Below, piece after piece: positions 39,692-50,349 of a DNA stretch of 64,000 nucleotides. The DNA lies in assembly GCA_028697715.1 (NCBI GenBank), contig JAQVDS010000003.1:1-64000 (forward strand), read 5' to 3'. The position numbers and the translations under genes are program-made. The stretch's first letter is position 1; every line of letters starts with the position of its first letter. The notes beneath the pieces were generated by a model, which did no database searches, was not told the origin of the DNA, and saw only the letters and a list, made by a program, of their open reading frames with translations. The DNA is from Acidithiobacillus sp. (lineage in GTDB: Bacteria; Pseudomonadota; Gammaproteobacteria; Acidithiobacillales; Acidithiobacillaceae).

Positions 39692-40645
39692 TCAGGAGTC
39701 TGTGGATGGATGGGCGTCTTCGCCCAGGGTCGGGGTGAGGGCATCATCCAGCCCTTCATGCAGAACACGCTGCAAAATTTCGGGCAGTACGCCGTGAATT
39801 TCCTGTGCCACCGTCTCGCGCAGACGAATGCCCTCGAGGGCAAGGCTGCGCATGATCGCCAGACTCACCTGCTCCTTCCAAGTCTTCTGCAGATGCTGGG
39901 TAATCTTTTCTTCCAGCTCCGCCACCACCCGGCGCTCCACCTCCTGAAACAGGAGCGTCTCGAACTGACGCAGGAAGTCGCCATCGAAGAGCAATGGGTC
40001 TGGAGTTGCCGTGGGATTTTTTGCTACGCCAAGCTCGGTCTTTTCGGAGGGAGGCATTGCGGTTTTGCTGTTTACCTCGGAAGCCCCGGTAACTTCGGTG
40101 TAGTGCGCACTTCTTGCCGGGACTGGAGCAACGGCACTCAGATCGTGATTCTCCATGGCGGCAACATCGTCATGAGGAGCCGCAACCGATCCGCTGTCCG
40201 CGACGGGCGGAAGGGCCTCTGCGCTGGGGGGGACCGTCGTCTCCGGCGCCGGCTCGCCATGCATCGGATCGGCTAACTCTGCCTCCGGCTCCGGTGCCGA
40301 GCTTTCTGGGGCGGGTTCTGCGGGATAGCGGAAGGACATATGGCGAATCTTCTCGAGTGCTTTCGCCAGCTCCGTCTCCTCCATGCTCTCCGCGGGCTCG
40401 GTCTGCTGATGCTCGGCCTCGTGATCGGTGTACATTGGGGCCGATGGTTCCACGGCTAGGGACGACTTTCCCTCAGCGGGCGCCGGGCCTTCCTCCTGAG
40501 GTGTTTTTTCTGGGGAGTGCGTCCTGCGCCGCCATAGAGGCGGCGGCAGACCTTCACGGACGAGATCCTGTAATAACAATGGCTCAGTCCCCTCCGGGAG
40601 CTCTTCCTCATCCAGAACGGGCTCGCGACGATCATGTACGGTCAT
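39692..40645 (-). CDS. Unknown acidic, proline-rich protein between holC and valS
   Basis: This 317-residue protein starts MTVHDRREPVLDEEELPEG. It has a long low-complexity middle (about 60-200) rich in Pro, Glu and Ala. The C-terminal helical part (about 220-300) reads LRQFETLLFQEVERRVVAE, LEEKITQHLQKTWKEQVSLA and ALEGIRLRETVAQEI. Similar genes sit between holC and valS in some betaproteobacteria (DUF2486-type, recalled and not checked). The helical part may be a coiled-coil interaction domain. No enzyme motif is seen. It lies 12 bases after holC. Confidence 0.7.
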   Translation of the reverse strand: MTVHDRREPVLDEEELPEGTEPLLLQDLVREGLPPPLWRRRTHSPEKTPQEEGPAPAEGKSSLAVEPSAPMYTDHEAEHQQTEPAESMEETELAKALEKIRHMSFRYPAEPAPESSAPEPEAELADPMHGEPAPETTVPPSAEALPPVADSGSVAAPHDDVAAMENHDLSAVAPVPARSAHYTEVTGASEVNSKTAMPPSEKTELGVAKNPTATPDPLLFDGDFLRQFETLLFQEVERRVVAELEEKITQHLQKTWKEQVSLAIMRSLALEGIRLRETVAQEIHGVLPEILQRVLHEGLDDALTPTLGEDAHPSTDS

Positions 40646-41098: not shown

Positions 41099-42598
41099 TT
41101 ACGCCAGCGCGCGCTGGCGCAAGAAGTGCACCAACAACGGCACCGGACGCCCGGTTGCGCCCTTGTTCTCGCCACTCTGCCAAGCCACTCCGGCAATGTC
41201 CAGGTGTGCCCAACGATAGTCTTCGGTAAAGCGCGACAGGAAACAGGCGGCGGTGATGGTACCGGCCGGGCGTCCTCCCACGTTGCTGAGGTCGGCAAAG
41301 GGGCTCTTGAGCTGCTCCTGATATTCCTCAAAGAGCGGCAACTCCCAGGCGCGGTCCTGGCTGCTGCGACCGGCATGCAGCAATTCCGCGACTAGACCTT
41401 CGTGATTGCCCAGCACCGCCGCCGTCTGGTGTCCGAGAGCAATGATACAGGCCCCGGTCAGGGTGGCCATGTCGATGACGACATCGGGATGGAAGCGCTT
41501 GGCATAAGTGAGGGCATCTGCCAGGATCAGCCGCCCCTCGGCATCGGTGTTGATGATTTCAACGGTGAGCCCGGCCATGCTGCGATGGATATCACCAGGC
41601 TTGGTGGCCTGTCCGTCTGGCAGATTTTCCGATGCGGGCACGATGACCGTGATATTGAGCGGCAGTTTGAGGTCTGCAGCTGCCTGGATGGCCGCAAGGG
41701 CAGCGGCGCCACCACACATGTCGTACTTCATTTCGTCCATCTTGTCGGCAGGCTTGAGGGAAATGCCGCCGGCATCAAAAGTCAGCCCTTTGCCAACGAG
41801 GACGATGGGCGCGGCATCCTGGGCGCCACCGCGGTAGTGCAATACAATCAGCCGCGGTTCCTGACGCGAGCCTTGGGCTACCCCGAGCAGAAGATGCATG
41901 CCGAGCTCCCGCATCTCCACTGGCCCCAAAATCTCCGCCTCGATGCCGCGGCTGCTTGCCATCTCTTGCGCCTGTTCCGCGAGCCAGGTCGGGGTACAAA
42001 TATTGCCCGGCTGGTTGGCCAGATCGCGCGCCCAATCACTGGCCTGGGAAATCGCATGGGCAACCGCCAGCGCCTGCTGCATTTCCCTCTCGGCCTCGGC
42101 GTCCAATTTCCCCGCGACCAGAACGCGGATGTTTTCCAGGCTGCGACGAGGATGCTTGGCCGGTTCCTTGTGCTGATCAAAGCGATACTGGGCATTGAGG
42201 ATACCGCGCAACCAGAGTTCCATTGCCGCGGCAGGACTGCGACGCGCGACGGCGACATCCCCCAGCGCGAGACACAATTCCGTCAGTTGCGCACGGGCGA
42301 CCGCTTGCCCCAGGCTGCGGGCAGCCTTCTGTAATTTTCCTTCGGCAAGCTTTTCGCCGCCACCGACGCCGACCAGCAGGACGCGCTCGGCGCCAACATT
42401 AGGTACGCCATAGAGCAGCTGACATTGTCCTGGCTCCGCCGTAAAATCGCCGCTGGCGAGAAAGCGACTGAGAAAGCCGTCGCTCTGTTCATCGATTTTT
42501 TGGGCGTTTGACCCGAGCTGGCCGTTTTCGTGACAGGCAAGCACCAGGCAAGCGCAAGGCTCCGATAAGGTGACGTTCTGCTGCAAAGAAATTTCCAC
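41099..42598 (-). CDS. pepA: Leucyl aminopeptidase (PepA)
   Basis: This 499-residue M17 aminopeptidase has two metal ions in its active site. Motifs are LVGKGLTFDAGGISLKPADK, KYDMCGGAAALAAIQ, ASENLPDGQATKPGDI, IINTDAEGRLILADAL and DMATLTGACIIALG. The start is GTG with GGAGG six bases upstream, giving a length near that of E. coli PepA (503); an ORF to 42682 would reach across the divergent lptF start. It is the first gene of the operon to nadC. A 12-bp palindrome (GATTGATCAATC, 42621-42632) lies in the intergenic stretch with lptF. Some PepA proteins also bind DNA. Confidence 0.95.
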   Translation of the reverse strand: MEISLQQNVTLSEPCACLVLACHENGQLGSNAQKIDEQSDGFLSRFLASGDFTAEPGQCQLLYGVPNVGAERVLLVGVGGGEKLAEGKLQKAARSLGQAVARAQLTELCLALGDVAVARRSPAAAMELWLRGILNAQYRFDQHKEPAKHPRRSLENIRVLVAGKLDAEAEREMQQALAVAHAISQASDWARDLANQPGNICTPTWLAEQAQEMASSRGIEAEILGPVEMRELGMHLLLGVAQGSRQEPRLIVLHYRGGAQDAAPIVLVGKGLTFDAGGISLKPADKMDEMKYDMCGGAAALAAIQAAADLKLPLNITVIVPASENLPDGQATKPGDIHRSMAGLTVEIINTDAEGRLILADALTYAKRFHPDVVIDMATLTGACIIALGHQTAAVLGNHEGLVAELLHAGRSSQDRAWELPLFEEYQEQLKSPFADLSNVGGRPAGTITAACFLSRFTEDYRWAHLDIAGVAWQSGENKGATGRPVPLLVHFLRQRALA

Positions 42599-42684
42599 GG
42601 TTTGCCTCCGGCGGGTATACGATTGATCAATCTCTATAGGGTACACCAGGGTAACATCCACAAGCCAACGGCAGGGCGGCAATC

Positions 42685-43827
42685 ATGACCTTATCCAGAC
42701 TACCCCTCTGGCCGGGCGAACGGATCGCTGCGCATGTTTTGCGCTCGGTACTGAGTTATTTTCTGATTGCCTGTGTCGTTGTTTTGGCTTTGCTGGCCAT
42801 TGGGCAGTTGACGCAGATCCTGCAACAAGTGGCCTCCGGTCAGTTGCCACTACAAGTGGTTCTGCAGTTGCTGGGTCTGAGTATGCCTACTCTCTTGGTA
42901 ACCGTTCTCCCTTTGGCGCTCTTCTTTGCTGTCTATCTGGCCTTTTCCAACCTCTATCGTCACAACGAGATGATGGCAATCCATGGCGCCGGCATCGGCT
43001 TGCAGAAATTGTTTTGGGGATTGCTGCCAAGCGTTTTTCTCCTCGTACTGCTGGAGGCGGGCCTTGCCCTATGGTGGGCGCCAGCTTCGCAGCAGCGTTT
43101 ACAGGACGAGAGCGCCCGTCTGGCAGCGGCGGCAGCACAGGCTTTGATTCATCCCGGTAGTTTTGCGCATCTTCCGGACGGTCGAGTGATCTACGTTGGC
43201 CAGGGGGCCGGGGCCAAGGACCGCTATCAGGAAATCTTTATCGATCTGTCGCAAGTTGGTGCGCCGGATTATGCGACCGCCGCCTTTGGTGAAATACAAA
43301 TCAACCATCACGGGGGCGTCTCGTTACTGCTGATCGATGGCCGGCGATATCTGGGACAACCCGGCCAGGCAGGCTACAAGATCTGGAGCTTTGCCCGATA
43401 TCGCGTCGATTTGGCAGCGCCCCGATCGGAGGGTTCCGCAACTTCCTGGACAGCCTTGTCCTTGCCGGATCTGTTTGCGCGGCTGGGGCGCCCGGACCAA
43501 CACGCCCACGCCCTGGCAGAACTCGAGTGGCGTATCTTCTGGCCATTGTTCCTGCCCATCGTGGTGCTGCTGGCTATTCCCCTTGCCTATGCCGAGCCGC
43601 GCCACCCTGGCCGGGCGGGGGGGGTCTTGCTGGGGATCCTGCTCCTGCTGGGCGCGAACAATCTCTTGGTGGCCTTGAAGGAAAATTTGATCCAGGGAAA
43701 GATTCCTCCCTTCCCGGGTCTGTTCTGGACCTGGATTCTGCTGGCGGGACTTGCCGCCTATCTGTTTTATCGGCGGCAGGCCGATTTACCCTTACTGCCA
43801 GCCTGGATGCGTGGGGTAGCATCGTGA
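42685..43827 (+). CDS. lptF: LPS export ABC transporter permease LptF
   Basis: This 380-residue inner-membrane protein has six helices and a large periplasmic domain between helices 3 and 4 (about 120-270). Near the start it has SVLSYFLIACVVVLALLAIG and LSMPTLLVTVLPLALFFAVY, and the coupling region NLYRHNEMMAIHGAGI. With LptG and LptB it lifts LPS out of the inner membrane. It is divergent from pepA, as is typical, and its stop overlaps lptG (GTGA). Confidence 0.93.
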   Translation: MTLSRLPLWPGERIAAHVLRSVLSYFLIACVVVLALLAIGQLTQILQQVASGQLPLQVVLQLLGLSMPTLLVTVLPLALFFAVYLAFSNLYRHNEMMAIHGAGIGLQKLFWGLLPSVFLLVLLEAGLALWWAPASQQRLQDESARLAAAAAQALIHPGSFAHLPDGRVIYVGQGAGAKDRYQEIFIDLSQVGAPDYATAAFGEIQINHHGGVSLLLIDGRRYLGQPGQAGYKIWSFARYRVDLAAPRSEGSATSWTALSLPDLFARLGRPDQHAHALAELEWRIFWPLFLPIVVLLAIPLAYAEPRHPGRAGGVLLGILLLLGANNLLVALKENLIQGKIPPFPGLFWTWILLAGLAAYLFYRRQADLPLLPAWMRGVAS

Positions 43828-44894
43828 AGCGCGCCGATGCGCTGTTGTTTCGTGGCATGTTGTTCTACAGCGGTCTGGTTCTGATCATATTGCTTGCCAT
43901 GGTCTTTGTCGCACAACTGATCGCCAAGGCCTCCGGGCCTGGACATGGACATTGGAGTATCGGTCTGTTGTTCCGCTACGTGGCCCTACAGATGCCAGAG
44001 ACGGCGTACACAGTCATTCCACTGGCCCTGCTCATCGGCGCGCTGATCTGGATCAGTATGCTAAACAGCCATTCCGAGATCACGGCCTTACGCATGGCCG
44101 GATGGTCTCTCGCACGTTTGCAGCGACCGCTACTGGTTGTAGGTCTGCTGGGAACAATATTGATGTTTGTCCTGGGTCAGTGGATCGTGCCGTACAGCGC
44201 TCTGTCTTCCGAACTGCTTTGGGCCAATGCCGGAACTCATAATTTTCAGGAGCTTGGTGATGGTGGCCTGTGGCTGCGCCAGGGGCGGACGCTCATCCGT
44301 ATCCAACTGGTCGGTGGTAACGGAACGCAGCTGCGACAGATTCGCATCTATTATCCGCAAAGTGGAATGGTGGGTATCGACAAACAAGTGGATGCCGAGG
44401 CGGCCAGCTACCAGAATGGGCACTGGACGTTGCAGGGCGTGCGGGAATACCGTTTGAAAGAGCGGTCTGTGCAGGTTCTTAGCGTGGCACATCAGGATTG
44501 GTCCGTGCAGTTGCAGCCGGAAACCCTGCGCAGTTTTGCCCATCGCACCCGCACCATGACCTTGCAGGCCCTGTGGCGCAACGACCGCGATCTGCAAGGT
44601 GGCGTGCTGGCCATGAACCGCTTTGCCCTGGCCTTCTGGCAACGAATCACCTACCCCTGGGTGGGGCTGATCATGATTCTGCTGGTGGTGCCCATGGTCG
44701 TGCGCAATCCGCGGGCGGGAGGGGCGTATTATTGGATTGCCGCTGGCCTGGCGCTGGGAATCTCGTTTCATTTCCTGACCCAGATGTCGGGCTTCATCAG
44801 CGTTGCCGGTGGCATTCCGCCGTCGCTTGCCACACTCTCACCGATGGCGCTCTACGCGGCGCTGGCCTGGTTTCTGTTCAGACGTCACGGCTGA
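43824..44894 (+). CDS. lptG: LPS export ABC transporter permease LptG
   Basis: This 356-residue partner of LptF has helices near 12-35, 55-75 and 98-118 and three at the C-terminus. The motif SHSEITALRMAGWSLARL matches the coupling helix. The GTG start overlaps the lptF stop, and the longer frame from 43527 is an lptF shadow. It completes the permease pair; the ATPase gene lptB is not in this window. Confidence 0.93.
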   Translation: MKRADALLFRGMLFYSGLVLIILLAMVFVAQLIAKASGPGHGHWSIGLLFRYVALQMPETAYTVIPLALLIGALIWISMLNSHSEITALRMAGWSLARLQRPLLVVGLLGTILMFVLGQWIVPYSALSSELLWANAGTHNFQELGDGGLWLRQGRTLIRIQLVGGNGTQLRQIRIYYPQSGMVGIDKQVDAEAASYQNGHWTLQGVREYRLKERSVQVLSVAHQDWSVQLQPETLRSFAHRTRTMTLQALWRNDRDLQGGVLAMNRFALAFWQRITYPWVGLIMILLVVPMVVRNPRAGGAYYWIAAGLALGISFHFLTQMSGFISVAGGIPPSLATLSPMALYAALAWFLFRRHG

Positions 44895-44983
44895 AAGAAA
44901 GCGCGACGGCGGTACCATGCTTGCTCTGGTCACTCTTGTTGCAGCAAACTACCTTACAGTATTCCTGATCTAGGAGCCTTACT

Positions 44984-46939
44984 GTGAATGAGTCAGTGCT
45001 CGTCAGTGCGTTGCAGGAATTTGCTGGTTGGCGCGGTGAGTTGGCGGCATTGGTCGAACAGGTATCTGCTTTTTCGCATCGTCTTGATTTGTTACCCAGT
45101 GGAACCATGCTGCGCTTGGAAATGCTGGCGCGAGAAATTCGCGAAGAACGGGTTATTCTTTCTTTTTACGGGGAATTTGCACGGGGAAAATCCGAGCTGA
45201 TCAACGCCCTGTTCTTTTATGACCAAGAATACCGCTTCCTCCCCTCTGGGGTAGGGCAAACCACCATGTGTCCAGTGGAAATCTGTGCAGCAAGCGATGC
45301 CAGTATTGATTTCCTACCGATGCAGGCAAGCAGCATGCATCACAATATTCAAGACCTCAAGAAAGTACCGGAGAAATGGCGGCGCATGCCTCTGACTCTT
45401 GCCGATATGGAGAAAACCCAAGCGGCGCTGCACCAGATTCAGGAAATGCAATGCGTCCCTCTTGCAGAGGCGCGGCGCTTCGGGCTTTGCCCACCGCTGG
45501 ATAGTGCGCGTCCACAACTTACCCGTTGTCCTTCTTGCGGCGAAGGCCGCGTAAAGATCTCCCGCTGGCGCTATGCACTGTTGCGTGTACCGCATCCCGT
45601 ATTGGCAGCGGGCTTGATCGTCATTGATACGCCTGGACTGAATTCCCTGGGTAGCGAGGCGGATATGGGCCTCGATGCAACTCGCGGCGCAGATGCATCG
45701 ATTTTTGTTTTGGGCGCGGATACCGGAGTGACGCAAAGCGATCTGCAAACCTGGGAACAATCACTATCCATTCACAGCCGCCAGCGACAGCTGGTGGTGA
45801 TCAATAAATGTGACCTCCTCGTCGATGAGATAGAGCCAACTACGTCGTTTGCGGAAAAGATTCGGGAGCAGTGTGACGCCGCGGCGCAGCGCCTGCAGCT
45901 CAATGGGAAACAGGTCGTGGCCATTTCTGCTCGTGAAGCACTACTGGGGCGCTTACGCAATCAGGAGGAGCGGGTCCGGGCCAGCGGCATCGATGATCTG
46001 GAGAATGCCATTGGCAATATCCTCATCCCGGAGAAGCGCAAGGAGATCGCTAGCTCGACAAAAGGTATTCTGCAGCGCGTGATCAACGATCAGCGTTACG
46101 TTTTGGAGGAGCAGCTGGAAGCCGTTGCGGCTGACATGGAGAGTATGCGACGGTTGGAAGCGCAAGCGGGAGAACAGGTACTTGTCTTGATCGACAGGCA
46201 AAAAAAGATCATTGACAATCTGGCGGTCGACCGAGACCAATTTTTGCGGATGCAGCGTGACGTGAACACACAAGAAAAAGGAAAACTGCTGGAATCGCTA
46301 TCCCTAGATGGGCTGGAAGAAATCGTTGAGCGCGCCAAGCACGATATGCTTGCGGTTTGGACAACGTATGGTATCTACGAGAGTTTTGGGAAGTTCTTTG
46401 CGAATACGATTGCCGGATTTGATGAGGCCTTGGCGCGGGCAAATCGACTATCGGAGAAAATGACGAATGCGTATCGTTCTTTGGAGCAGATTTACGCTCT
46501 ACCAAAACTGGATACCTTGCCTTATATCTTGTTGCCGAGAAGGGCCGAACTGCTTGCCTTGTCAGATTACTATGAACGCTTCGGCAAGCGTCTGGAAATT
46601 GCTGCGTATCCTCAGGGAGTGGTAGTACGCAAGGCCTTTTTCAATCTTGCGAAGCAGGTTCGTACCTTCGTTCTGGAAACGCGCAACGATCTTCTGGAGT
46701 GGGTGGAAGAAACCTTTGATCTGATGAATTCGCATCTGCAGCGTTGCAGTTTGCAGGCGCAGGAAAAACTGACGGCGCTTACTGCAATCGCCGAATCATC
46801 GGCGAGTATTCAGCAGAGAATTGAAGACCTACGTCTGCGCGAGGCCCGGATTCACTACGAAATAGATGAGTTGGCCTCGCTACAGAGCGAACTGGATCGA
46901 TATTTTCAAGCCATCCCAGACCTGGCGGGCGCGGCATGA
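44984..46939 (+). CDS. Dynamin-like GTPase with a cysteine-rich insert
   Basis: This 651-residue protein has the dynamin-type GTPase motifs: G1 GEFARGKS at 63-70, G2 threonines in GQTTMCPVE (92-94), G3 DTPGLNSLG from 215 and G4 NKCD at 274-277. Between G2 and G3 is an extended insert with CPSCGEGRV (182-190), like one half of a zinc knuckle. The second half is largely helical with heptad-like stretches, as in bacterial dynamin-like proteins that remodel or protect membranes. GTG is the start, with AGGAG seven bases upstream. No second dynamin-like gene is adjacent, although many bacterial ones come in pairs. A terminator follows. Confidence 0.82.
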   Translation: MNESVLVSALQEFAGWRGELAALVEQVSAFSHRLDLLPSGTMLRLEMLAREIREERVILSFYGEFARGKSELINALFFYDQEYRFLPSGVGQTTMCPVEICAASDASIDFLPMQASSMHHNIQDLKKVPEKWRRMPLTLADMEKTQAALHQIQEMQCVPLAEARRFGLCPPLDSARPQLTRCPSCGEGRVKISRWRYALLRVPHPVLAAGLIVIDTPGLNSLGSEADMGLDATRGADASIFVLGADTGVTQSDLQTWEQSLSIHSRQRQLVVINKCDLLVDEIEPTTSFAEKIREQCDAAAQRLQLNGKQVVAISAREALLGRLRNQEERVRASGIDDLENAIGNILIPEKRKEIASSTKGILQRVINDQRYVLEEQLEAVAADMESMRRLEAQAGEQVLVLIDRQKKIIDNLAVDRDQFLRMQRDVNTQEKGKLLESLSLDGLEEIVERAKHDMLAVWTTYGIYESFGKFFANTIAGFDEALARANRLSEKMTNAYRSLEQIYALPKLDTLPYILLPRRAELLALSDYYERFGKRLEIAAYPQGVVVRKAFFNLAKQVRTFVLETRNDLLEWVEETFDLMNSHLQRCSLQAQEKLTALTAIAESSASIQQRIEDLRLREARIHYEIDELASLQSELDRYFQAIPDLAGAA

Positions 46940-46942
46940 CGC

Positions 46943-46973
46943 AGGGTGCTGCTGTTGTTCACGCACCCTTTTT
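46943..46973 (+). terminator. Terminator after the dynamin-like gene
   Basis: AGGGTGC and GCACCCT form a 7-bp stem with a 13-base loop, followed by TTTT. It lies four bases after the stop and overlaps the 3' end of the convergent unknown gene. Confidence 0.65.
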
Positions 46974-47297
46974 CTGGCGCAGAGTTTCTTCGTCGAAAGC
47001 CTGATCCAGGGTTTGCGACAACTGCAATACCTGACGAAAAAGCTGCGCATCCGCGTCATCGGCCTGGCTGCGAAGACGCAAGGCAGCTAGGCCAGAAAAG
47101 CAGTCTGCGCGGGTTACCTCACTGTCCGGAGCACTGCAGGCGTTGGCGCGGTAGATACCTGTCAGGACCTCGCTCGCCAGCGGGTCTTCCAGCGTGCCGG
47201 CTTCTGCAGCCGACAAAGAGCTGCCCACATCCTGGCTGTGCAGGAGAGAAAAGCTCACATGGCTGTCGAGGAATTCCATCAGTTCGGCATAGGTCAT
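46959..47297 (-). CDS. Unknown small acidic protein
   Basis: This 112-residue protein starts MTYAELMEFLDSHVSFSLLH and is rich in Glu, Asp and Ala. It has three cysteines (ANACSAP, RADCFSG). No family, signal or membrane segment is recognised. It is the last gene of the minus-strand operon, 13 bases after the GST-like gene. Its coding status rests on position, a short upstream GGAG-like site and protein-like composition. Confidence 0.6.
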   Translation of the reverse strand: MTYAELMEFLDSHVSFSLLHSQDVGSSLSAAEAGTLEDPLASEVLTGIYRANACSAPDSEVTRADCFSGLAALRLRSQADDADAQLFRQVLQLSQTLDQAFDEETLRQKKGA

Positions 47298-47310
47298 CGG
47301 TATACTCCTG

Positions 47311-47985
47311 TCAGGTTGGGCGTATGCCACTGTTGAGCGAGACTCGACAGCTTTCGGCAACACGCTGAAAATAATACTGTAAATCCAAAGGTAAGGTGAC
47401 GCCATCGAGTAGGCGAAGCAACTGCAAATCGGCGCAGAGAACCAGATCGATCAGGGATAGGCGGCCCACATAAAAACGCTGTTTGGCAAGCAGTTTGGCT
47501 AACGCCGGAAGGCGTCCCCGCTGCGCGAGTTGTTGGTAGCCGCCATAGCGGTCATTCGCTAGGGCTTCCAGGCTTTGGGCAAAACGACGTTCGCTTTCCT
47601 GGCGAAAATATTCCAAGTCTTCGGGATCATCCGAGATCTCGGCAAAGGCTGGTTGTACAGGAAGCAACAAGCGCTGCAGCAGCGCATCGAGATCCTGACG
47701 CCACTGACAAAAGGCCTGCCACTCCGCTGCTTGGAGTATACCGGTATACAGGGACTCGCCCCCGAGAGTAGCATCGAGAGCGGGGAGTTCGCTGAGCTCC
47801 CCGGTCCAGCACTGCTCGCCAATTTGCAGGACGGGTAATCGTGCAAAACCGAGATCGAAGGCGATTGCCAGATCTTGCAGGGGGCGGGCTTCTGCCTGGT
47901 AGCTGCAACCCTTGGCGCCAAGCAGTAGGCGCAGGCGGAGTGCCTGGGGGTCGGACCAATGAAAATACAGGACTGGTTCAGACAA
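47311..47985 (-). CDS. Glutathione S-transferase-like protein
   Basis: This 224-residue protein begins LSEPVLYFHWSDPQALRLRL. The N-terminal thioredoxin-like half has LPVLQIGEQCWTGELSELPAL, and the helical C-terminal half has QRGRLPALAKLLAKQRFYVGRLSLIDLVL. This layout is the GST fold, but the active Ser/Cys/Tyr is not obvious, so it may be a non-catalytic or divergent member. TTG is used because it overlaps the end of the EVE gene by eight bases and has GGAG upstream. Confidence 0.65.
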   Translation of the reverse strand: MSEPVLYFHWSDPQALRLRLLLGAKGCSYQAEARPLQDLAIAFDLGFARLPVLQIGEQCWTGELSELPALDATLGGESLYTGILQAAEWQAFCQWRQDLDALLQRLLLPVQPAFAEISDDPEDLEYFRQESERRFAQSLEALANDRYGGYQQLAQRGRLPALAKLLAKQRFYVGRLSLIDLVLCADLQLLRLLDGVTLPLDLQYYFQRVAESCRVSLNSGIRPT

Positions 47986-48439: not shown

Positions 48440-48757
48440 CTACGACTCCAGCGCCACGGGCTGACCCAGCCGTTGCTGGAGAATCCTGCCGAGATAGGCA
48501 GGGAGGGTCTGCCCCGAGCGGGAATCCACCCAGCTGCCGGCAGCATTCCGGTCGAAGCGCGCTGGGCCGTCACTGCAGGCCAGCCAGATCTGTTCGACGG
48601 CTTCTTGCCGATTGAGGATGATTTCGCTGTCATCGGGTAGCCGCAGGGAGAGCACGCTATCGATGAGATCGGCCTCGACTTCCGGGGCCTGCGCCTCGAT
48701 TTGCTCGAGAAGCCCTTGTAAACATTCCTCTACGGCTGCAGCAAAACTTTGGGTCAT
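48440..48757 (-). CDS. cyaY: CyaY, bacterial frataxin homologue
   Basis: This 105-residue protein has an acidic first helix ([20 protein letters not shown]) and a beta sheet with [35 protein letters not shown] and [18 protein letters not shown]. These match frataxin. It binds iron and tunes iron-sulfur cluster assembly, relevant to an acidophile living with high iron. The start overlaps the recQ stop (ATGA) with AAGGAG upstream. Confidence 0.9.
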
Positions 48758-50349
48758 CGTGATCTCCTTTCGCGCCATGATCGCCTGCCCGACTCTGGGG
48801 AGCAAGTGTTTGCGGTTCCCGAACGTAGCCAGATGCGCTGTTCCTTGCGCAGAATGGGGCGACTGCTGGCATGCAGAATGAGTCCGCTGCCTTCCGGATG
48901 CGGCTGCAGGTGGCCGCGCGCCAGCAGATGGCGGAAGACTTGTTGCCAGTCGCGCGGTGGCAAACGTCGCCCAATGCCAAAGACCTGCAGGCGATGATGC
49001 TGGGCCTGACGGACCCGTGGCGTGTCGCGGCCAATGAGAATATCGATGAGGTGTTGCACGCCGCAGCGCTGGCCACTGCGGTACGCCGCCGAGAGGGCCA
49101 TCTGCGCTGCCTCGCTGGCATCCCAGAGGGGCGGCGCGTGCAGGCAGTTGTCACAATTACCGCAGGGGTGGTCAAGCTTCTCGCCAAAATAGCCCAGCAG
49201 TTTCTGACGCCGGCAACCGACCTCCTCGGTCAGATCCAGCATGGCTTGCAGTCGCTCTTCCTCGGCACGTCGCTGTTCGCTGCTTGCCCCCGATTGCTGA
49301 ATCATCTGCCGCAGCAGTAGCAGATCCTGCAGGCTATAGTGCAACCAGGCTTCTGCCGGCTTGCCATCGCGGCCAGCGCGCCCGGTCTCCTGATAGTAGG
49401 CCTCGATGCTTTTCGGTAGATTGAGATGGGCGACGAAGCGCACATCGGCCTTATCGATACCCATGCCGAAGGCAATGGTAGCGACCATGATCTGGGTCTT
49501 GCCGCTTAGGAAGGCGATTTGATGGGCACTGCGCTGTTCGGCGGGCAAGCCGGCGTGGTAGGGCTGCGCGCGATAGCCCACGCTCTGTAACCAGCTTGCC
49601 GTTTCCTCGACCTTACGACGGGACAGGCAATATACAATGCCAGCACCGCGCTGCCGCCGTAGAAACTCAGCGAGGGCTTCGCGCCCGCCGCTGCCCTGCT
49701 CGATATGGTAGCGGATATTGGGCCGGTCGAAGGATTGCACGAATACCTGGGCGTCGCCGAGGGCAAGGGACTGCTGGATTTCGGCACGGCTGGTAAGGTC
49801 GGCGGTGGCCGTCAGGGCAATGCGAGGTACGCCGGGGAACAAGGCGCGCAGGCGTCCCAATTGGCGATATTCTGGGCGGAAATGATGGCCCCACTGGGCC
49901 ACGCAATGGGCCTCATCGATGGCGAAGAGGCTGATGGGTAGTTCGCGGAGAAGCCGCAGCATGCGTTCCTGCAGCAGTCGCTCCGGGGCACAGTAGAGGA
50001 TGCGCAATTCCCCGGCGCGGAGCCGGTGTTCTATGGCGTCCGGATCGTTTGCTGCCGAGTGTAAGGCGGCTGCCGCAATGCCTCGTCGTTGCAGGGTCTG
50101 GACCTGATCATCCATCAGGGCAATGAGGGGCGAGACGACAATGGCGGTCCCCGGTCGCGCCAGCGCCGGTATTTGGTAGCAGAGCGATTTGCCGCCGCCG
50201 GTGGGCATCAGTACCAAGGCATCACCGCCGCCAATCAGCCGCGTTACGATGGCGTCCTGTGGTGGACGGAATTCCCGGTGACCAAAGGTCTCGCGTAGGA
50301 TTTTCTGCGCTTGCGCCAGGGCGGGATCAGGGGACGAACTGGGTATCAC
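48754..50349 (-). CDS. recQ: ATP-dependent DNA helicase RecQ
   Basis: This 531-residue superfamily 2 helicase has the glutamine motif FRPPQ (27-31), Walker A PTGGGKS (49-55), DEAH (145-148) and the aromatic loop [11 protein letters not shown], in which the usual Asp after Gly-His is His. It also has [17 protein letters not shown] and [10 protein letters not shown]. The RecQ zinc cysteines CGNCDNC lie near residue 400, and a winged helix follows. No HRDC domain is present, so it is shorter than E. coli RecQ (609). The GTG start overlaps the end of the membrane protein gene. Confidence 0.93.

Follow-up and report, generated by a model that had tools for sequence, protein, structure and literature searches.

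Results

The dlpA locus

We analyzed a 64,000-nt stretch of Acidithiobacillus sp. DNA (the window) that carries a gene for a dynamin-like GTPase just downstream of lptF and lptG and on the same strand (Table 1), next to the two genes where an earlier note on this DNA had located it. The reading frame drawn in that note was exact in coordinates and strand, and its naming of the product as a dynamin-like GTPase agrees with a Pfam Dynamin_N match of 46 bits against a curated cut-off of 27. For this gene we coined the label dlpA; it is also referred to as copy A. The G1 to G4 motifs of the protein are all intact (GEFARGKS, T93/T94, DTPG, and NKCD), and the CPSCGEGR sequence singled out in the note does lie between the G2 threonines and G3, at residues 182-189. 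Alignments A2 and A4 draw on 68 of 82 named ORFs plus the window sequence. Throughout the text, "the order" is the window's order (families f1 and f2), which we take to be Acidithiobacillales; within family f1, g1 denotes the genus of the window and g2 and g4 two other genera. Copy A of the window is 96% identical to copy A of genome G007. The dynamin family to which it belongs is large, with at least 587 matches in a scan of bacterial genomes, and a literature search judged by titles and the openings of abstracts, with most subscription papers outside its coverage, returned no paper on this family.

Table 1. Features of the dlpA locus (positions in the window; residues numbered in the dlpA product).
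Feature	Position	Strand	Remarks
lptF (LptF/LptG family)	42685..43827	+	Pfam PF03739, 191 bits
lptG (LptF/LptG family)	43824..44894	+	Pfam PF03739, 218.3 bits; 89 bp before dlpA
AGGAG, probable ribosome-binding site of dlpA	44972..44976	+	read from sequence
dlpA (copy A)	44984..46939	+	dynamin-like GTPase, 651 aa, GTG start
G1 / P-loop GEFARGKS, residues 63-70	45170..45193	+	E64, R67, G68, and K69 invariant in alignments
G2 / switch I threonines T93-T94	45260..45265	+	invariant in 22 and in 69 aligned sequences
alpha/beta subdomain, residues 97-212, G2 to G3	45272..45619	+	common to relatives outside the order
C157, first of the four-cysteine set	45452..45454	+	42/42 aligned sequences of the order
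C169 (GLCPP)	45488..45490	+	42/42 aligned sequences of the order
CPSC knuckle, C182 and C185	45527..45538	+	C182 in 40/42, C185 in 42/42 in the order
G3 DTPG, residues 215-218	45626..45637	+	invariant in alignments
G4 NKCD, residues 274-277	45803..45814	+	N274, K275, and D277 invariant in alignments

On the lptFG flank lie genes for HolC, an M17 aminopeptidase, and a valyl-type tRNA synthetase, and the other flank holds glutaredoxin-2-like, EVE-domain, and RecQ-like helicase genes (Pfam). A 317-aa ORF without a Pfam match occupies positions 39692-40645 (- strand) between valS and holC, and a gene of the same cluster is found at 16 of 16 copy A loci. Copy A follows lptG at each of these loci (the window, L147-L160, and L050); the group A listing holds 17 loci, one of which (L161) is without a full dynamin gene. 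When positions 42500-47400 were scanned for promoters and terminators, no promoter-like or terminator-like site was placed between lptG and dlpA, in a scan whose total (3 promoter-like and 6 terminator-like sites vs. 2.7 and 5.1 in shuffles) was no better than that of shuffled sequence. Of the 27 copy B loci (see below), 25 have a PrmC-cluster gene nearby, 20 one of the MutM cluster, and 20 a ferredoxin-like gene, the clusters being named from the Pfam match of one member each; further genes at these loci are presumably those for PrfA, HemA, CoaD, RsmD, FtsY, FtsE, FtsX, and RpoH. Outside the order, 78 of 92 loci hold a gene of the MutM, ProC, or YggT cluster. Since neighbors recur at the A, B, and outside-order loci, the dlpA family looks like a vertically kept chromosomal gene.

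Paralogy and loss of copy A

The GTPase had previously been described as solitary. This is true of the locus, as the window contains no second Dynamin_N gene, but not of the genome, which has a 41% identical paralog (copy B) on another contig (G000:C2:27556-29463). The family profile A1 found only these two copies in the window genome. A third Dynamin_N match, on contig C35, was rejected as a third dynamin; it is a 455-aa ORF that directly follows an ORF read as YidC and that we take to be MnmE. Across the order's 31 genomes (G000-G030), both copies occur in 16, copy B alone in 12, and neither copy in three (G016, together with G001 and G027, both of which are less than 90% complete). Two of the B-only genomes belong to family f2, for another (G020) copy B consists of just a piece at the end of a contig, and G019 and G022 are single-contig genomes. 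Of the 16 two-copy genomes, G002 has copy A split by an element with an ISL3-family transposase (L050:7974-9293); the 8-bp repeat CAATCTGG occurs at both ends of the element, and exact inverted repeats of at least 8 bases are absent from its ends. Because copy A was not found in 12 genomes that have B and is split by an insertion element in one more, copy A is dispensable. Elsewhere, a 160-aa open frame at G023:C1:1463871-1464230, 46% identical to dynamin residues 499-618, appears to be a stray C-terminal fragment, and two same-strand dynamin genes of the family stand side by side at L122:3709-7845 and at L140:5938-10318, indicating that local pairs exist.

A tree was built by a quick method with the cysteine columns left out. 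All 15 A rows group in a single clade (SH-aLRT 100) next to the 24 B rows from family f1 (SH-aLRT 99), and the two f2 rows fall outside. Given this arrangement, copies A and B would most simply have arisen by duplication at the base of f1.

Predicted fold

An AlphaFold2 model of the full protein (pLDDT 86.2, pTM 0.76) has a G domain followed by a helical neck and trunk, with predicted helices at residues 336-642. Hydrophobicity peaks at a 19-residue mean of 1.4, too low for a membrane-spanning segment. Where a membrane-binding paddle would be sought at the trunk tip, the model has loops at about residues 505-515 and 538-544 between long helices, and these are not strongly hydrophobic. Mitofusins (5gom and 6jfk) were the best single-sequence PDB matches and share a G domain and helical bundle with dlpA (Z about 23 over 319-376 residues; for mitofusin 1, 5gom_A, Z 23.1 with 359 aligned and rmsd 3.4), but the identity is 15-17% and dlpA is without a membrane-spanning segment. 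BDLP (2j68/2j69), which we take to be a Nostoc punctiforme protein, likewise has a G domain and then a long helical neck and trunk (526-541 of 651 residues aligned, Z about 22; for 2j68, Z 22.3, 526 aligned, rmsd 6.1). A long G2-G3 stretch is common to both, although that of BDLP measures about 72 residues vs. 116 in dlpA and the two proteins are only 13-14% identical. The dlpA product is a bacterial dynamin-like protein of the BDLP/mitofusin type, ordinary in fold and locus.

The extended insert of about 100 residues that the earlier note described between G2 and G3 proved not to be peculiar to this protein. From G2 to G3 there are 120-125 residues in the order (42 aligned sequences) and 113-122 in all 16 class-level relatives, which lack the cysteines, and by structure alignment the stretch overlays residues 106-177 of BDLP and 85-228 of SynDLP. 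The similar length in class-level relatives and the overlay on the two known structures indicate that the long stretch is a family feature, and only the short piece around CPSCG is extra: of the 16 outside relatives, all have a gap at C182 and 14 have one at C185. The survey of relatives recommended in the earlier note, once run, found the cysteines to be specific to the order but the long stretch to be common to relatives outside it. Folded alone, the subdomain gave a confident alpha/beta model (pLDDT 88.4). A Foldseek search with this model had no PDB match at E <= 0.001, and its best VIA-align 2 hit (Z 4.0, rmsd 2.5, 63 aligned) was to the same region of SynDLP; no zinc-ribbon entry was among the matches listed, which excludes nothing. 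In the full model, C157 lies on a predicted strand (155-159), C169 in the next loop, and C182 and C185 just ahead of strand 189-193. Around the cysteines, mean pLDDT is 79, 56, and 79 for residues 161-170, 171-180, and 181-190, respectively.

A four-cysteine set in the G domain

All four of C157, C169, C182, and C185, spaced as C-x11-C-x12/14-C-x2-C, occur together in 40 of the 42 Acidithiobacillales sequences aligned, both paralogs included. The other two, copy A of G008 and of G017, are sister sequences that carry C182S, keep three of the four cysteines, and still have an open reading frame. Seven of 64 ORF matches (window copies, duplicates, and fragments) were excluded from the alignment. 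The truncated row L050 enters the cysteine count but was left out of the tree, L030 is interrupted by the end of a contig, and the fragments G023:C1:1463871, G028:C111, and G086:C25 were not aligned. Outside the 42-sequence count, copy B of G005 also has the TxCV, GLC, and CPSCG motifs, and the G020 fragment has C157 before its sequence ends.

The full set was seen in none of the 16 aligned class-level relatives. Among the 82 named ORFs it occurs in four, which belong to the order and were already counted above (L065-L068, corresponding to G004, G007, G010, and G028), and the other 78 have no or one cysteine within residues 150-200. When a profile of the cysteine-bearing stretch was run against 369 genomes of the class, with no more than 16 candidates per genome given a score, it reached 118-130 bits in the order (four genomes) and no higher than 53 elsewhere. 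The set was likewise absent from all 26 outside loci of the class survey, five of whose genomes are also among the 16 relatives. So far, then, the four-cysteine set has been seen only in the Acidithiobacillus order.

On a tree of 41 sequences, parsimony required 0, 0, 1, and 0 steps for C157, C169, C182, and C185, respectively, compared with a median of 5 steps per site over residues 118-190 and with 6, 5, 8, and 7 steps for the remaining variable cysteines, C101, C276, C297, and C588. Nineteen of the 73 sites at residues 118-190 change at most once; the probability that four random sites would all do so is 0.0036, a value to be read in light of the sites having been picked after looking. C96, which adjoins G2, is kept almost throughout the family and is separate from the set.

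A diguanylate cyclase neighbor in genus g2

The gene that comes after copy A in genus g2, on the same strand, encodes a GAF_2 and GGDEF protein with a hydrophobic N-terminus and a GGDEF motif (L155-L158 and L160). The first in-frame start lies 26-34 bp behind the copy A stop in L155, L156, and L160. The cyclase gene or its remains occur in all seven g2 genomes with copy A. It looks intact in four of them (G014, G015, G018, and G023), has an early in-frame stop in G017, is frameshifted in G008, and is split over two contigs in G021. Scraps detected by tblastn after lptG derive from copy A and the cyclase in G028 and from the cyclase in G016, both g2 genomes without an intact copy A. A cyclase search in the 15 genomes without intact copy A returned nothing at 1e-90, an empty answer that alone shows nothing. 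No match was found at the seven copy A loci of g1 and g4 that were tested, in the window genome at 1e-60, or beside the window's copy A. Nearby GGDEF motifs were seen for 5 of the 16 copy A loci, none of the 27 B loci, and 5 of the 92 other loci, which does not amount to a cyclase link across the family. Three GGDEF-motif proteins near dynamins outside the order (L099:8684-11053, L062:8615-11047, and L056:3164-4399) are too few for a link. The two C182S genomes are the ones with a stop (G017) or frameshifts (G008) in the cyclase, and since they are sisters, the coincidence of C182S with a decayed cyclase counts as one event.

Discussion

CPxCG is the knuckle typically found in zinc ribbons and rubredoxins, and metal sites are usually made up of such a knuckle together with two further cysteines. 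The earlier note had raised a possible metal site from the CxxC of dlpA, reasoning that it would fall if the cysteines were not conserved among close homologs. When run, that test did not refute the site, and our data support it: the CxxC is part of a four-cysteine set, of which the note had seen two members, that has been kept together through a gene duplication, and close homologs have all four in 40 of 42 cases. The classical zinc ribbon has two CxxC-type knuckles; dlpA has only one (C182/C185), with C157 and C169 separated by 11 residues. Joint conservation within the order, along with the lack of the set in the outside relatives examined, is what one would look for in a structural four-cysteine site. 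From the sequence comparisons, one structural metal site, probably for zinc and older than the A/B duplication, fits best. The literature searched (titles and openings of abstracts) yielded no dynamin-like GTPase whose G domain has a metal site.

We therefore lean, with a little more confidence than an even chance would warrant, toward copy A being a duplicated, chromosomal BDLP/mitofusin-type GTPase of the Acidithiobacillaceae whose four cysteines hold one structural zinc that stiffens a loop near the nucleotide site. Judging from fold and family, copy A is most likely a soluble GTP-binding protein that pairs via its G domain and acts at the inner membrane from the cytoplasmic side. The alpha/beta subdomain lies beside switch I and, in this order, carries C157, C169, C182, and C185. 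These would most likely hold a single structural zinc ion, zinc being the presumed metal, and the bound cysteines may thereby stiffen the loop next to the nucleotide site, with consequences for the G domain. Weighing against this explanation are the modest model confidence at residues 161-190, the single CxxC, the two sequences in which C182 is lost while the frame stays open, the absence of a PDB match for the subdomain (E <= 0.001), and the lack of a membrane-spanning segment.

Several other explanations merit consideration. It is conceivable, though unlikely, that copy A is mainly a signaling GTPase controlling a diguanylate cyclase, which has been kept adjoining in one genus and elsewhere was lost or never joined. 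The model for such a role is RdcA (YjdA) of E. coli, which we take to be CrfC and which, like copy A, is a dynamin-like GTPase; the family has a profile match to it (probability 96.9), but the likeness is limited to the G domain and BLASTP gave an E of only 0.066, so orthology is not indicated. DgcE, a diguanylate cyclase, interacts with RdcA and is activated by it (PMC6510439), which is what makes the g2 neighbor interesting, and no other cyclase-linked dynamin, nor any zinc-linked one, was found by titles and openings of abstracts. The cyclase gene or its remains in seven of seven g2 genomes, the scraps in two g2 genomes without an intact copy A, and the coincidence of C182S with a broken cyclase in two genomes all favor such a role. 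However, the gene looks intact in only four of the seven, the two C182S genomes represent one event, all seven g1 and g4 loci tested as well as the window genome gave no match, and GGDEF proteins are infrequent near other members of the family. A redox switch or disulfides tuning GTPase activity, with no metal site, is in our estimation slightly less probable still. SynDLP (Slr0869) of Synechocystis is also a bacterial dynamin-like protein with a long G2-G3 stretch (85-228) and conserved cysteines, and these matter for activity, with loss of the C8-C777 disulfide lowering stability and GTPase activity (PMC10104851). Redox-type genes also lie near the dynamins, a ferredoxin-like gene beside copy B and a glutaredoxin-2-like gene one gene from copy A, which may be coincidence. 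In contrast to dlpA, the SynDLP cysteines are in the BSE rather than the G domain and form a disulfide, and the word zinc is absent from the main text of that paper. The four cysteines of dlpA come and go nearly as a set, and their pattern of CPxCG plus two cysteines is typical of a metal site; both points argue against the redox explanation.

The position of copy A after lptG in all 16 loci, with no terminator-like site between the two in a scan no better than shuffles, raises the possibility of a role with LptFG in lipopolysaccharide export or envelope upkeep. We regard this as very unlikely, as 89 bp separate lptG from dlpA, an lptG match was found in 14 of 15 genomes without intact copy A, and copy B and other family members are located elsewhere. 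The hint in the earlier note at protection against phages found no support, and an anti-phage dynamin comparable to DynA of Bacillus subtilis or a LeoABC-like system has hardly any claim on our belief. DynA is reported to confer phage resistance (PMC8844932), and the PADLOC LeoBC model matches dlpA (33.2 bits, E 7.7e-9). LeoA and LeoBC of ETEC share a bacterial dynamin G domain with dlpA by weak matches, but the LeoBC match begins with this shared domain, the window has no second Dynamin_N gene, and no Leo match that would indicate a leoA-leoB-leoC cluster occurred in the ten neighbors of the window's copy A, which with dlpA itself formed the scope of the PADLOC scan. Nine of these ten had no PADLOC match, no Dpd set was seen, and the Pfam-scanned neighbors are mostly housekeeping genes. 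The tenth, a RecQ-type helicase gene (48754-50349, - strand), matches DpdF models of 28 families at up to 688 bits; with its RQC and RecQ_Zn_bind domains it looks like an ordinary RecQ, and it was rejected as a Dpd defense component, the match being taken as helicase likeness with nothing matching around it. This helicase serves as a caution for model-based defense calls.

A more far-reaching idea, to which we give very little weight, is that A and B, though dispersed in the genome, form a metal-sensing dynamin pair in which zinc- or redox-dependent pairing of G domains would be relayed by copy A to a membrane-anchored cyclase where that has been kept. If so, a dynamin would be a metal or redox input to c-di-GMP signaling in acid-living sulfur and iron oxidizers. 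Returning to the structural metal site that we prefer, its presence in the G domain, if real, would offer a direct handle on how the region on the switch I side controls G-domain pairing. The duplicated, dispensable copy A and its cyclase neighbor in g2 provide a second case in which input from a dynamin to a diguanylate cyclase could be tested, in a dynamin family that sits in conserved chromosomal loci of beta- and gammaproteobacteria.
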